NCBI RefSeq assembly: GCF_009762795.1
Contig: NZ_CP046400.1
Location: 186,001 to 250,000, forward strand
Length of the DNA stretch: 64,000 bases
Reading direction: 5' to 3'
From: Pseudodesulfovibrio cashew
GTDB lineage: Bacteria; Desulfobacterota; Desulfovibrionia; Desulfovibrionales; Desulfovibrionaceae
Shown one piece after another: positions 39,428 through 49,374 of the stretch (positions are counted from its first letter, which is position 1; every line of letters begins with the position of its first letter). The notes beneath the pieces are model-generated. The model saw only the letters and a program-made list of their open reading frames with translations, was not told the DNA's origin and did not search any database. The position numbers and the translations under genes were made by a program.

Positions 39428-41167
39428 ATGCGTCTTTCCCGTTACTACGTCCCGACCCTGAAGGAAGACCCGGCCGACGCCGAGGTGGTGTCCCACAAGC
39501 TGCTCATGCGCGCCGGGATGGTCCGCAAGCTGACCAGCGGCATCTACAACTACCTGCCGCTGGGCCTGCGCTCCATCAACAAGGTAGCGAACATCGTGCG
39601 CGAGGAGATGGATCGTGCCGGAGCCATGGAAGTGCTCCTGCCCACGGTCCAGCCCGCCGACCTCTGGCAGGAGACGGGCCGCTGGGAATACTACGGCAAG
39701 GAGCTGCTCCGGTTCAAGGACCGCCACGACCGCGACTACTGCCTCGGCCCCACCCACGAGGAGGTCATCACCGACCTGGTCCGACACGAGATCAAGTCCT
39801 ACAAGCAGCTGCCGGTCAATCTCTATCAGGTCCAGACCAAGTTCCGCGACGAGATCCGCCCCCGCTTCGGGCTCATGCGCGGCCGCGAGTTCATCATGAA
39901 GGACGCCTACTCCTTTGACAAGGACGAAGCCGGAGCCGAGGCCTCCTACTGGAATATGTTCGAAGCCTACAAAGCGGCATTCTTACGCATCGGCCTGAAT
40001 TTCAAACCCGTCCAGGCGGACTCCGGCGCCATCGGCGGCGACTTCTCCCATGAATTCATGGTTCTGGCCGAGACCGGCGAGGACACCATCGCCTCCTGCA
40101 AGGCATGCGAGTTCGGCGCCAACCTGGAAAAGGCCAAGGTGGCTCCGCCCACTGAGACCGGCGGCCTCGAGGCCCCCTGCCCGCCCATGGAAGAGGTCTC
40201 GACCCCGGGCACCCACACCGTGGAGGAGGTCTGCGGCTTCCTCGGCATCTCCGCCGACAAGCTGGTCAAGACCCTGCTCTTCGTGGTCGACGGCAATCCG
40301 GTGGCCGCCCTGGTGCGCGGCGACCGCGAACTCAACGACGTCAAGCTGCGCAACCTGGTGGGCGGCAACGAGATTGAGATGGCCGACGAGGAAACGGTCA
40401 AGAAGCTGACCGGAGCGCCCGTTGGTTTTGCCGGCCCTGCCGGCCTGGCCGAAGACGTGCCCGTCTACGCGGACCACGAGTTGCTCTCCGCCACTGACTG
40501 GGTGGCAGGCGCCAACAAGGGCGACACCCATGTCCAACACCTTTCCCTGGGCCGCGACTGCAAGGTCGAGGCATTCGCCGACCTGCGCGTCATCGAACCC
40601 ACCGATCCCTGCCCGGAATGCGGCGGCGAAATCGAATTCAAGAAGGGCATCGAGGTCGGCCACGTCTTCAAGCTCGGCCTCAAGTACTCCGAAAAGATGG
40701 AAGCCACCTTCCTGGACGAGAACGGCAAGTCCCAATACATGATCATGGGCTGCTACGGCATCGGCGTCTCCCGCATCGTGGCCTCCGCCATCGAACAGAA
40801 CCATGACGAGAACGGCTGCTGCTTCCCGCCCTCCATCGCTCCCTTCGAGGTCTGCCTGATCTCCTTGGGCGGCAAGGACCAGGATGTGGCCGACAAGGCC
40901 GAGGAACTCTACGCGACCCTGGAGGGGCTCGGCGTGGAGGTGGCCTACGATGACCGCAAGGAGCGCCCCGGCGTCAAGTTCGCCGAGGCCGATCTCATCG
41001 GCTATCCCATGCAGCTCGTACTCGGCGGCAAGGGCCTCAAAAACGGCATCATCGAGGCCAAGAACCGCAAGACCGGTGAAAAGACCGAGCTGCCCCTGGA
41101 AGGCTTTGCCGAGGCCTTCGCTCAGTGGCGCAAGGACATCTGGAACGGCTGGGGACTGGACGCCTAG
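39428..41167 (+). CDS. proS: Prolyl-tRNA synthetase
   Basis: Class II aminoacyl-tRNA synthetase charging tRNA-Pro. The 579-aa bacterial-type enzyme shows motif 1 ([17 protein letters not shown]), motif 2 ([20 protein letters not shown]), a YbaK-like editing insert (about 225-400: [21 protein letters not shown]) and motif 3 ([16 protein letters not shown]), then the anticodon domain. It is tightly linked to ispG. Confidence 0.96.
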
Positions 41168-41209
41168 CCTTCACGGAAAAGATTCCTCAGCAAACAGATC
41201 AACGCAATC

Positions 41210-41242
41210 AAAAGCGCACCATGCCAGGCATGGTGCGCTTTT
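41210..41242 (+). terminator. Terminator after proS
   Basis: A perfect stem starting AAAAGCGCACCATGCC with a 1- to 3-base loop and ending CTTTT, 43 bases after the proS stop. Confidence 0.85.
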
Positions 41243-41379
41243 CGTTTGTCGCAGTAATCGCGGCAGTCATATCATTCTGGCTTCAGCTATCGGAGGGCTC
41301 GATACTCCCATCCCAAAAACATCAACCTCATCTCTATCGACGGATCGCTGCAGCATGGCCGATACGACGCCAACACAAC

Positions 41380-41445
41380 GTCGCAATATGTCGCATTGCG
41401 ACGTCGCAATTGTTGCATTTGTCGCGCGACAGTGTCGCATGCGAC
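41380..41445. promoter_or_regulatory. Cluster of TGTCGCA half-sites
   Basis: Within 66 bases GTCGCA or its complement TGCGAC occurs at 41380, 41390, 41397, 41403, 41434 and 41440, plus the palindrome GTCGCGCGAC at 41421-41430. The last pair forms the perfect palindrome GTCGCATGCGAC. It lies just upstream of the -35 of the CII-like gene at 41610, a typical position for a multi-site regulator. Confidence 0.75.
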
Positions 41446-41458
41446 GTTTGAAACACAT

Positions 41459-41487
41459 TTGCGTGAAATGCGGGGTTTCTCTAGAGT
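41459..41487 (+). promoter_or_regulatory. Promoter of CII-like gene A
   Basis: TTGCGT and TAGAGT separated by exactly 17 bases, immediately downstream of the TGTCGCA cluster. Confidence 0.55.
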
Positions 41488-41609
41488 TTGTATAACCATT
41501 AGTCTTTACAGAATATAATGCGACTAATGCATGCCTTGGCACACCGATTGCTTTAATGAGTTCAACAGCGCATCACTCGAGCCTGCAACAAACCAATGTG
41601 GAGGGAAAT

Positions 41610-41858
41610 ATGTTTGAGAGAAACGTGACCAAGGTGGTTCAGGACTGCATTCTCGACAGCGGCATCCAGGCCAAGGTTGTAGCGGAAAAGATCAACAAGC
41701 CGTACTCGACTCTCATGCGGGAAATCAATCCCTTTGACGCCAGCGCCAAGCTCGGTGCCGAGACCCTGCTCGAAATCATGAAGGTCACCTCGGACATCCG
41801 CCCCCTGCAGTTCATGGCTTCCGAGATGGGTTGCTCTCTCGAATCCGGAACTGCATAG
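41610..41858 (+). CDS. CII-like small DNA-binding regulator A
   Basis: An 82-aa protein resembling the phage regulatory CII family: MFERNVTKVVQDCILDSG, a helix-turn-helix-like AKVVAEKINKPYSTLMREIN, then FDASAKLGAETLLEIMK and LQFMASEMG. GGAGGG lies four bases before the ATG at 41610; the frame upstream is leader. A paralogue sits at 49057, and the five genes between them form a sensory operon. No other prophage genes are adjacent, so it is probably a domesticated regulator. Confidence 0.72.
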   Translation: MFERNVTKVVQDCILDSGIQAKVVAEKINKPYSTLMREINPFDASAKLGAETLLEIMKVTSDIRPLQFMASEMGCSLESGTA

Positions 41859-41901
41859 TTTTCGCTGAACCGTCCAGCCTTCGACAGCACAAGCACATTT
41901 C

Positions 41902-42012: not shown

Positions 42013-44265
42013 ATGACCGAAACCAAAAGCAAGAAGACATCCTCACCCAGCGCTCTGAGCAGAAGGGCCGCGTTGACGCAGACCGTGGCCATAGCAGGGG
42101 TTGTCCTCCTGTTTTCCATTGCCGCCATTCTCTACAACACCTACCGCCTCTACAACCAGGTTGACAGCAAGATAGCGAGCGTGGCCGCCCTGGCGGAAAC
42201 CAGCCTGGCCACGGCGGTCTGGCAGGTGGACCACGCCTCGGCCAGGGATTTCATCAACGCCGTCCTCCTGGACCCGGACGTGGTCTTTGCCCAGGTGGTC
42301 ACGGGCCGCGAGACCATGGCTTCACGCGCCAAGCCGGGCTACGCGGGCATGGACTTCGCCGCCTTCGGGAAAAACGGACAGTTCCGCACCATCGCCGTGG
42401 AGATCAGAAAGAACGGCAACCGGATCGGCACGTTCAACCTGGCGACCTCGCTTCAGTCAATCCGCCGGGACGTGGTCATCAGTTGCCTCGTAACCCTGGT
42501 CCTGGCCTTCGTGCTCATCGTCGTCATCTCCCAGACCACGCTCTATTTCTCCCGAGCCAAGCTGTTCAACCCGCTCAAAAGGCTCGAGGAGTCGGCAACA
42601 TCCATTGCCGACGGCGATCTTGATGCTCCCATCGACACCCATCTGCCCGGAGAACTCGGCACCCTGGCCCACGCCATTGACGATATGCGCGACTCGGTAC
42701 GCCACCTGATCAGTGACCTGCAGGAATCCAAACTGCGTCTCGAGGATCACCGCAATGCCCTGGAAAAGACCGTCAAGGAACGCACCGAAGAGCTTGAGCA
42801 GAAAAACGAATCCCTGAACAAGGCCCTGGACGACGTACGCAACGCCAAGCGGGCGGCCGAGGTGGCCAACCTGGCCAAGTCCAGCTTTCTGGCCAGCATG
42901 AGCCATGAGATCCGCACTCCCATGAACGCCATCCTGGGCATGGCCGACATTCTCTGGGAAACCAAACTGACCGAAGACCAGTCTCGTTATGTGCAGGTGT
43001 TCCGGTCAGCAGGAGAAAACCTGCTGGAAATTCTCGATGACATCCTTGATCTCTCCAAAATCGAGGCGGGACGCCTCAGCCTGGAGGAAATCGAATTCAA
43101 CCTCTACGAGGTAATCAGCAAAACCTGCGCGCTGATCGAGCCCAAGGCACGGAGCAAGGAGCTGAGCTTTTCCTGCGACATTGCCCCCACAGCCCCGGAA
43201 TTCCTGAGCGGAGACCCGGTCCGGCTGAAGCAGATCATCATCAACCTGCTCGGCAATGCCGTGAAGTTCACCGAAGAAGGCACAGTGAGCCTGAGCGTGG
43301 ACCCCCTGCAGACTGAAAACGAGGACCTGCTCCTCCAATTCACCGTCAAGGACACCGGTCCGGGAATCCCCCCGGACAAGCTCGACGCCATCTTCGACTC
43401 ATTCACCCAGGCGGACAGCTCCACCACCCGGCGATTCGGCGGAACCGGCCTGGGACTGGCCATCAGCAAACGGCTGGTGAGCATGATGGGCGGCCGAATC
43501 TGGGTCGAGAGTTCCCACGGATCGGGTTCGGCCTTCCTGTTCACCGCCCGCTTCAACCTCTCCGAACCGATCGACATCATGCCGGGAGAGCCCCTCCCCA
43601 CCATCGAGGACGGCGACCTGCCCGCTCTGAACCTGCTCGTATGCGAGGACTCCAAGTACAACGCCTTCGTCATCCAGACCTATCTCAAGAACACCCCCTG
43701 CACCCTGACCATCGCAGAAAACGGCCAGGTCGGCGTGGACGCCTTCAAGAGAGAGGCCTTCGACTGCGTGCTCATGGATATCCAGATGCCGGTCATGGAC
43801 GGGTATGAAGCTACCCGCACCATCCGGGAGTGGGAGGCGGAAAACGGGCGGGCGCGCACCCCGCTCATCGCCATGACGGCCTACGCCCATTCCGAGGCCG
43901 CCCAGGCGTGCCTTGAGGCGGGGGCCGACAGTCACCTGGCAAAGCCGGTCAAGAAGAGCGCCCTCTTCGACGCACTGCAAGCTGTCAGTCTCCCCAAGGG
44001 AGGAGACGCCGAGAGCGAGGAAGCTGAGGCGGCCCGAATCAGCGTGAAAGCGGCCTACGCCGCATTGGAGCGCGACGACTTCGCCTCTGTCCGGGTGCTG
44101 GGCAGCGACATCGAAAACCGAGGGAAGGCGCTGTCCCTGGAACTGCTGACCGAAAGCGGCGCAGCCCTGCAACAGGCAGCCGGAGACGTTCCTGATCGTG
44201 CGGCTGTCAGACGAATCCTGGACGACCTCGCCCAAGTCGTTGATATACCGGGGCCGTTGGGGTAG
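42013..44265 (+). CDS. Hybrid sensor histidine kinase
   Basis: A 750-aa membrane kinase. Transmembrane helix 1 is near residues 22-42, followed by a periplasmic sensor domain of about 125 residues; helix 2 is near 158-178. Then come HAMP (PLKRLEESATSIADGDLD), a coiled coil (residues 240-285), HisKA with His298 in SHEIRTPMNAIL, HATPase (NLLGNAVKF, DTGPGIP, GGTGLGLAI), and a receiver domain with phospho-Asp589 in LMDIQMPVMDGYE. A 100-residue C-terminal tail may be a degenerate HPt or regulatory region. The ATG at 42013 is 83 bases after a terminator. Confidence 0.93.
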   Translation: MTETKSKKTSSPSALSRRAALTQTVAIAGVVLLFSIAAILYNTYRLYNQVDSKIASVAALAETSLATAVWQVDHASARDFINAVLLDPDVVFAQVVTGRETMASRAKPGYAGMDFAAFGKNGQFRTIAVEIRKNGNRIGTFNLATSLQSIRRDVVISCLVTLVLAFVLIVVISQTTLYFSRAKLFNPLKRLEESATSIADGDLDAPIDTHLPGELGTLAHAIDDMRDSVRHLISDLQESKLRLEDHRNALEKTVKERTEELEQKNESLNKALDDVRNAKRAAEVANLAKSSFLASMSHEIRTPMNAILGMADILWETKLTEDQSRYVQVFRSAGENLLEILDDILDLSKIEAGRLSLEEIEFNLYEVISKTCALIEPKARSKELSFSCDIAPTAPEFLSGDPVRLKQIIINLLGNAVKFTEEGTVSLSVDPLQTENEDLLLQFTVKDTGPGIPPDKLDAIFDSFTQADSSTTRRFGGTGLGLAISKRLVSMMGGRIWVESSHGSGSAFLFTARFNLSEPIDIMPGEPLPTIEDGDLPALNLLVCEDSKYNAFVIQTYLKNTPCTLTIAENGQVGVDAFKREAFDCVLMDIQMPVMDGYEATRTIREWEAENGRARTPLIAMTAYAHSEAAQACLEAGADSHLAKPVKKSALFDALQAVSLPKGGDAESEEAEAARISVKAAYAALERDDFASVRVLGSDIENRGKALSLELLTESGAALQQAAGDVPDRAAVRRILDDLAQVVDIPGPLG

Positions 44266-49056: not shown

Positions 49057-49374
49057 ATGTTCGAGAAAAGCGTGACAAAGAAGATGCAGGACATTGTCCT
49101 GGGTGGCAGGGTTCCGGCCAAACAGGTGTGCCGGGAAATCAAGAAACCGTATTCAACATTGCTGCGGGAGCTCAATCCGTTCGACAACCACGCCAAGCTC
49201 GGCGCGGAGACCATGTTCGAGATCGTCAAGGCGACGCACAACGTCTCCATCCTCGAATTCATGGCAAGGGAGCTGGGTTATACACTCATGCCCATGGAGC
49301 GGGACAATCCCGTCGGCAGGCCCAAAGGCCGCAAGACCACGGAGCGCGTGCGTCGCCAGGCAGCGACAATGTAG
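49057..49374 (+). CDS. CII-like small DNA-binding regulator B
   Basis: A 105-aa paralogue of the protein at 41610: both share MFE-x-x-VTK, KPYSTL(M/L)RE, NPFD and AKLGAET. This copy has a C-terminal extension VGRPKGRKTTERVRRQ, an AT-hook-like basic tail that may strengthen DNA binding. A GGGGGG tract precedes the ATG. It lies 184 bases after the phosphatase gene. Probably represses or activates the adjacent sensory genes or itself; inference. Confidence 0.72.
   Translation: MFEKSVTKKMQDIVLGGRVPAKQVCREIKKPYSTLLRELNPFDNHAKLGAETMFEIVKATHNVSILEFMARELGYTLMPMERDNPVGRPKGRKTTERVRRQAATM

Follow-up and report, generated by a model that had tools for sequence, protein, structure and literature searches.

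A genus-wide array of TGTCGCA half-sites as the putative enhancer of a sigma-54 type promoter before a CII-like gene in Pseudodesulfovibrio

The array of TGTCGCA half-sites that precedes gene A, which codes for a small CII-like regulator, in Pseudodesulfovibrio cashew is a real switch element found throughout the genus. It is very likely the upstream activating sequence (UAS) of a sigma-54 type promoter driving gene A, with its half-sites bound by one enhancer-binding protein (bEBP), probably an activator of 987 amino acids. As judged from comparison of sequences, this sigma-54 enhancer appears to be of unusual design, phased and free in orientation. The analysed stretch of 64,000 nucleotides is referred to as the window, and its relevant features are listed in Table 1.

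Table 1. Features around the array and gene A, in window coordinates.
Feature	Position	Strand	Basis or remark
proS	39428-41167		upstream of array
Likely intrinsic terminator of proS	41210-41243	+	by eye
Putative UAS (enhancer) array of TGTCGCA half-sites	41380-41445	.	core positions and genus conservation
Conserved A+T-rich block between array and promoter	41482-41519	+	alignment of 29 orthologues anchored on sigma-54 site
Predicted sigma-54 promoter TGGCACACCGATTGCT (-24/-12)	41537-41552	+	30 genus loci: 29 strict matches, 1 with a one-base change
Gene A, 82-aa PF06892 (Phage_CP76/CII-like) regulator	41610-41858	+	Pfam E 9.7e-10
Gene B, CII-like paralogue, 52% identity to A	49057-49374	+	without array; TTGACG-type upstream sequence (by eye)

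The array is flanked by the likely proS terminator on one side and by gene A on the other. The preliminary description had reported six half-sites and a palindrome within 66 bases, and all of them are in place: GTCGCA/TGCGAC starts at 41380+, 41390+, 41397-, 41403+, 41434+ and 41440-, and the palindrome GTCGCGCGAC occupies 41421-41430 inside the array. Reduced to the core GTCGC/GCGAC, the sites are 41380+, 41390+, 41398-, 41403+, 41421+, 41426-, 41434+ and 41441-, and one degenerate GTTGCA near 41412 is a further member. That this density is far above chance was likewise borne out. When 300 first-order Markov sequences of window length were generated, the maximum was 3 copies per 66 bp (reached in 7 of 300, otherwise 1-2), compared with the observed 6. 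Over the whole window GTCGCA/TGCGAC matches 25 times versus 43.85 expected, so that outside the array it is rarer than chance; the only hexamers with at least 5 copies per 66 bp anywhere in the window are GTCGCA and the simple repeat ATCATC. The layout upstream of gene A would suit multi-site cooperative binding, as had been suggested. An Rfam scan near the array in 8 loci gave no match to a known RNA, and a phage DNA similarity search of 41200-41900 gave no match.

The conserved promoter of gene A appears to be of sigma-54 type. A TGGCACG-N4-TTGCW-like -24/-12 element occupies a conserved position, 66-97 bp before the ATG, in 30 orthologous upstream regions (our own and those from 29 of 35 other genus genomes). 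Four further genus loci have a similar sigma-54 site preceded by three to six GTCGC cores. Conservation had been named in the preliminary description as a check on the array; at each of the 34 genus loci examined, gene A is preceded by a cluster of at least three GTCGC cores together with a promoter of sigma-54 type, a count that leaves out G014, which has gene A. The putative sigma-54 site lies downstream of TTGCGT-N17-TAGAGT, which had been taken for the promoter of gene A. Both hexamers are indeed present (41459-41464 and 41482-41487), but they are not conserved in the other 28 orthologues. At the anchored place across 29 loci, the -35 and the -10 each have 0-4 matches of 6, and TTGCGT-N17-TAGAGT was rejected as a sigma-70 promoter.

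Further, we examined the arrangement of the sites in 29 non-identical loci (L027 was left out, its upstream region being nearly identical to that of L026). GTCGC cores within terminator hairpins (GGGAGTCGC, GCGACTCCC) were excluded from core counts and positions. Cores in either orientation lie near -144, -136, -125, -115, -104, -95 and -84 from the TGG of the sigma-54 site, which makes a lattice spanning about -145 to -84, that is, conserved repeated sites upstream of a sigma-54 promoter, as in a UAS. The register of array to promoter is constant although the distance from promoter to ATG differs by 31 bp. Without prior choice of a word, TGTCGC is the commonest hexamer (146 copies, in 29 of 29 loci), and other frequent hexamers mostly overlap it. 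The consensus is TGTCGCA: of 166 GTCGC cores, 145 are preceded by T and 139 followed by A. Exact non-overlapping TGTCGC amounts to 145 sites, 3-7 per locus, and their pooled phase coherence peaks at 10.3 bp (r=0.71). At 10.2 bp it is 0.708; among 2000 random placements that preserve site number and minimum spacing, none reaches this value and the highest is 0.224. Since this null ignores the relatedness of the loci, the figure overstates their independence. Neighbouring pairs 7-13 bp apart are +- in 34 cases, -- in 18, -+ in 12 and ++ in 8; orientation is therefore free, with inward-facing pairs prevailing. The lattice emerges from the genus as a whole and cannot be seen in the window's own copy. 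There the cores lie at -157, -147, -139, -134, -116, -111, -103 and -96 from TGG, and no other array among the 29 is so poorly phased (0.36, about equal to random placement).

We wondered if the motif is peculiar to this locus. A genome-wide search, proposed in the preliminary description, found GTCGCA-N0-6-TGCGAC at 2 places in the 3.9-Mb genome, both in the array, with 1 place for the backwards control pattern. Our own genome lacks the longer pattern TGTCGCA-N0-2-TGCGACA, which 17 of the 36 genus genomes possess, at 25 places altogether; 22 of these precede gene A and the remaining 3 do not. In 24 genomes of other families it turned up a single time. Places elsewhere were inspected for L041, where the palindrome is inside a 109-aa ORF, L033, a lone intergenic site in another family, and L047, in a transposase-like stretch (by eye); G026:C55 was left out. 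Looser patterns are less selective in our own genome: TGTCGC-N2-7-GCGACA has 2 places, neither in the array (control 3), and TGTCGC-N2-27-TGTCGC has 31 (control 10). Among the 32 paired-site loci fetched from this genome, at least three TGTCGC no more than 260 bp from a sigma-54 pattern occur only in the array and at one other locus, which belongs to a second activator. L286 and L287 have three TGTCGC and no sigma-54 pattern nearby; L275 has two, with a sigma-54 pattern 259 bp on. The array is thus specific to nearly a single locus.

The second activator is a bEBP encoded at G000:C1:3866974-3868522, and it might bind the same enhancer in place of the 987-aa protein. Near the 5' end of its gene stands TGTCGC-N6-GCGACA, and right after its stop a GTCGC cluster is followed by a sigma-54 site and an EamA-like transporter gene (by eye). 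Yet its presence is patchy: among 22 other genus genomes searched (E<=1e-90), close orthologues (70-79%) were found in 4, together with one 43% homologue, whereas the array is present in all 34 loci. Since close orthologues are confined to 4 of 22 genomes, the second activator cannot account for an array found throughout the genus. Besides, the sites beside its orthologues L294, L295 and L296 are everted (GCGACA-N4-TGTCGC-like), which is a different layout. As the binder of this enhancer it is therefore improbable; in its own species it might cross-talk with the array. The locus as a whole (G000:C1:3866974-3868740; L098, L293) is a patchily distributed bEBP gene with TGTCGC sites, a sigma-54 site and an EamA-like gene, and a 70% homologue of the activator in another family (G038) suggests transfer.

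A sigma-54 promoter requires an AAA+ enhancer-binding protein. Because the promoter of gene A seems to be of this type, such a protein was sought as the binder. The genome encodes 33 strong bEBP domains by profile search, none of them within the window. A motif scan of 21 loci (20 relatives and the window) detected no bEBP adjoining gene A, where a similar scan missed 14 of the 33 own activators; by eye, the end of a bEBP gene can be read in 5 of 20 regions upstream of CII-like genes from other genera. In two sister genera (g20 and g41), activators of one clade are located directly upstream of the CII-like gene, and in a FastTree phylogeny of activator domains these neighbours cluster with a single own activator (support 0.999). 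Other CII-like genes elsewhere adjoin activators from another clade, closest to own_L096 or own_L093, so that neighbourhood alone is not decisive.

The activator singled out in this way is encoded at G000:C1:143554-146514 on the minus strand, 81 kb from the array, and has 987 amino acids comprising REC, PAS repeats, AAA+ with GAFTGA and HTH_8. Its matches to PF00158 (E 3.1e-66) and PF02954 (E 6.2e-14), along with the GAFTGA motif, place it in the NtrC family of bEBPs. All 36 genus genomes encode it, two of them in a fragmentary or split form; in the 24 genomes from other families, no match to it extends beyond 469 of the 987 residues. Within the genus its gene is not adjacent to gene A, and the 420 bp after it hold no such array; the following gene belongs to the thioredoxin family. 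The linker between AAA+ and HTH is long and variable within the genus, which could let each HTH adopt either orientation. On the evidence of the sequences, this REC-PAS-AAA+-HTH activator is most likely the best candidate for binder of the array.

To follow the activator outside the genus, 37 distinct homologous loci from sister genera were taken from the higher-scoring part of a longer match list. An array (at least 3 half-sites) with a sigma-54 promoter was found in 24 of the 37, usually no more than a few hundred bases past the activator stop, and 2-2.5 kb away at L221 and L225. In 21 of the 24 the word is TGTGGC, each locus having 1-6 exact copies (no more than 1-2 in L242, L244 and L251, alongside several TGGGGC), and in the remaining 3 (L228, L231, L236/L256) it is TGTGnC. 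The scan detected no array at 13 of the 37 loci, among them L222, L223 and L255, with a TGTGGC-type helix, and L233, with a helix near the TGTGnC type. The words separate sharply: TGTGGC occurs 89 times and TGTCGC not once in the 21 TGTGGC loci, as against 145 TGTCGC and a single TGTGGC in the 29 genus arrays. The recognition helix of the activator differs accordingly, being G[IVM]HRATLYR[KR] in 29 of the 30 loci from the genus (an in-frame stop interrupts L214), [GN][VI][DH]R[RK]TLYRNM in 21 of 21 TGTGGC loci and GISRRT[LI]YRK in 3 of 3 TGTGnC loci. The DNA word thus appears to change together with the helix, a covariation that rests on few independent events, as the word changes are confined to few lineages.

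The spacing recurs in these related bacteria, where both word and controlled gene differ. Positions in the best sister arrays closely match each other (-145, -135, -125, -115, -103 in L224; -146, -136, -126, -115, -103 in L226). Pooled phasing is weaker in the sister genera than in the genus, with a peak of r=0.46 at 10.8 bp and 0.385 at 10.2 bp versus a random maximum of 0.319. By Pfam, the genes downstream are sodium:dicarboxylate symporters at L224 and L235, and at L231 there is a sub-threshold thioredoxin match; the protein concerned is 34% identical over 88 residues to the one encoded after the candidate activator.

Between array and promoter lies a block whose genus consensus reads tagActTttTaTAACc.tTaG...AaTATAAt. 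Written as TAGACTTTTTATAACC.TTAG...AATATAAT, it is strongly conserved in most of 29 genus loci. It may be a site for a bend protein or a cryptic sigma-70 -10 element. In 18 of 29 loci, a -10 resembling TATAAT stands at -44 to -47 behind a poor -35, the pair matching at 9-10 of 12 positions (a score without a null), and on these grounds an additional sigma-70 start in the block is possible. The conserved block with its TATAAT-like element, the mixed orientation of the half-sites and the irregular spacing of our own copy could also mean that several proteins share the array, a bEBP along with a repressor or nucleoid protein, or that an extra sigma-70 promoter is served and the phasing serves bending. 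Against this, one word dominates all 29 loci and switches with the helix of a single activator, which makes such an arrangement improbable. On the other side of the array, a conserved ATGGACCGCAACCCACACC block followed by a GC-rich terminator-like hairpin was observed upstream of it in many relatives, among them L004, L006, L011, L014, L019 and L025; upstream flanks of L004, L014, L019 and L025 gave no Rfam match.

Gene A scores 38.9 bits against PF06892 (gathering cut-off 26) and is thus a member of this family. It was found in 34 of 35 other genus genomes searched, with 76-93% identity, so that 35 of 36 genus genomes have it versus 0 of 24 genomes of other families; G008, a genus genome of 82% completeness, has the gene B type only. 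Of 247 genomes in the order, 113 yielded CII-like relatives in a search from the gene A alignment, and these cover 28 of the 51 genera. Directly after gene A, a hybrid histidine kinase is encoded at 42013-44265; of 21 loci compared, the window's and those of 20 relatives, 19 contain its sequence cluster. This kinase could feed the receiver domain of the candidate activator. In other genera, CII-like genes stand beside response-regulator-type bEBPs of a second clade (L174, L175, L182, L189), hinting at repeated pairing of the two kinds of genes. In genome G212 (L160/L173), a dense GTGTAA/TTACAC repeat lies upstream of a sigma-54-like TGGCGCCCTTCTTGCC and a CII-like gene and adjoins a related bEBP with another recognition helix.

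The preliminary description had proposed one of the two CII-like proteins as the regulator, in which case the array would be an operator for A or B (autoregulation). Its position upstream of gene A is in keeping with this, as is the spacing of the half-sites recognised by known CII proteins, which lie on a single face of the DNA at intervals of one or two helical turns. A CII-like binder is nevertheless unlikely because a sigma-54 promoter needs an AAA+ enhancer-binding protein. No array was found upstream of gene B in our own genome, and the only other locus found there with at least three TGTCGC and a sigma-54 site adjoins the second activator. In sister genera, arrays stand beside the activator in fetched stretches that lack a convincing CII-like gene. 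If the array were a CII operator, it should occur only together with a CII-like gene; 11 of 21 genomes with TGTGGC arrays (G060, G118, G126, G140, G150, G151, G173, G200, G206, G222 and G228) have no CII-like match at E<=1e-3. We regard autoregulation as highly improbable. Because the arrays track the activator and a CII-like match is absent from those 11 genomes, a sigma-54 enhancer of phased design is preferred.

From these observations we infer the following course of binding, ring assembly, looping and activation. TGTCGCA half-sites would be bound by HTH_8 domains of one bEBP. With many half-sites occupied, most of them along the same helical face, the AAA+ ring would assemble, loop over about 100 bp to reach sigma-54 RNA polymerase and open the promoter through ATP hydrolysis, so that CII-like regulator A would be made. 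To our knowledge, it is not settled how a hexameric bEBP with several DNA-binding domains engages its enhancer. Tentatively, and with somewhat less than even confidence, we propose a transferable grammar: one bEBP family would read an orientation-free lattice with one half-site per helical turn in fixed register, the spacing persisting while word and target change with the helix, and the whole AAA+ ring (about one half-site per subunit) would dock on 60-70 bp via individually tethered HTH domains. About 50 natural arrays of similar geometry, with different words and matching helices, make stoichiometry, tether flexibility and HTH specificity directly testable. Moreover, a core Pseudodesulfovibrio gene otherwise annotated only as phage CII gains a probable regulator.

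Helically spaced half-sites are familiar from CII operators of temperate phages (lambda, 186), which are bound by a small HTH activator. The array resembles them in this spacing; it differs in that its promoter appears to be of sigma-54 type and that arrays also occur in genomes with no detectable CII-like gene.

Several sites upstream of a sigma-54 promoter are also present at norVW of E. coli, where three enhancer sites are the scaffold for the NorR oligomer (PMC2941729). Unlike these three sites, the array usually has four to eight half-sites of mixed orientation, about 10 bp apart and in a promoter register that is fixed throughout the genus. Targets of Nla28 in Myxococcus xanthus likewise have clusters of half-sites, 3-5 imperfect 8-bp ones, upstream of TGGCACG-N4-TTGC(T/A) promoters (PMC9765219). 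The Nla28 repeats, however, are described as tandem, with variable spacers (mean 25 bp), and occur at many promoters, while spacing in the array is about one turn and our own genome has one clear array of this kind. Closer in taxonomy are bEBP regulons of Desulfovibrio vulgaris Hildenborough, with TGT/ACA half-sites and, for DVU2956, a motif with three half-sites (main text of PMC4641369). Neither GTCGC nor GCGAC appears in the main text of PMC4641369 or PMC3333781, figures and supplements aside. Among the openly licensed texts listed, exclusive of supplements and figures, we recognised no description of the motif in these bacteria or of an orientation-free phased lattice, and on this account we judge the phased array to be new among multi-site bEBP enhancers. 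Measured against this body of text, enhancers with multiple bEBP sites are already known from NorR and Nla28, and the new element is the phased, orientation-free lattice.
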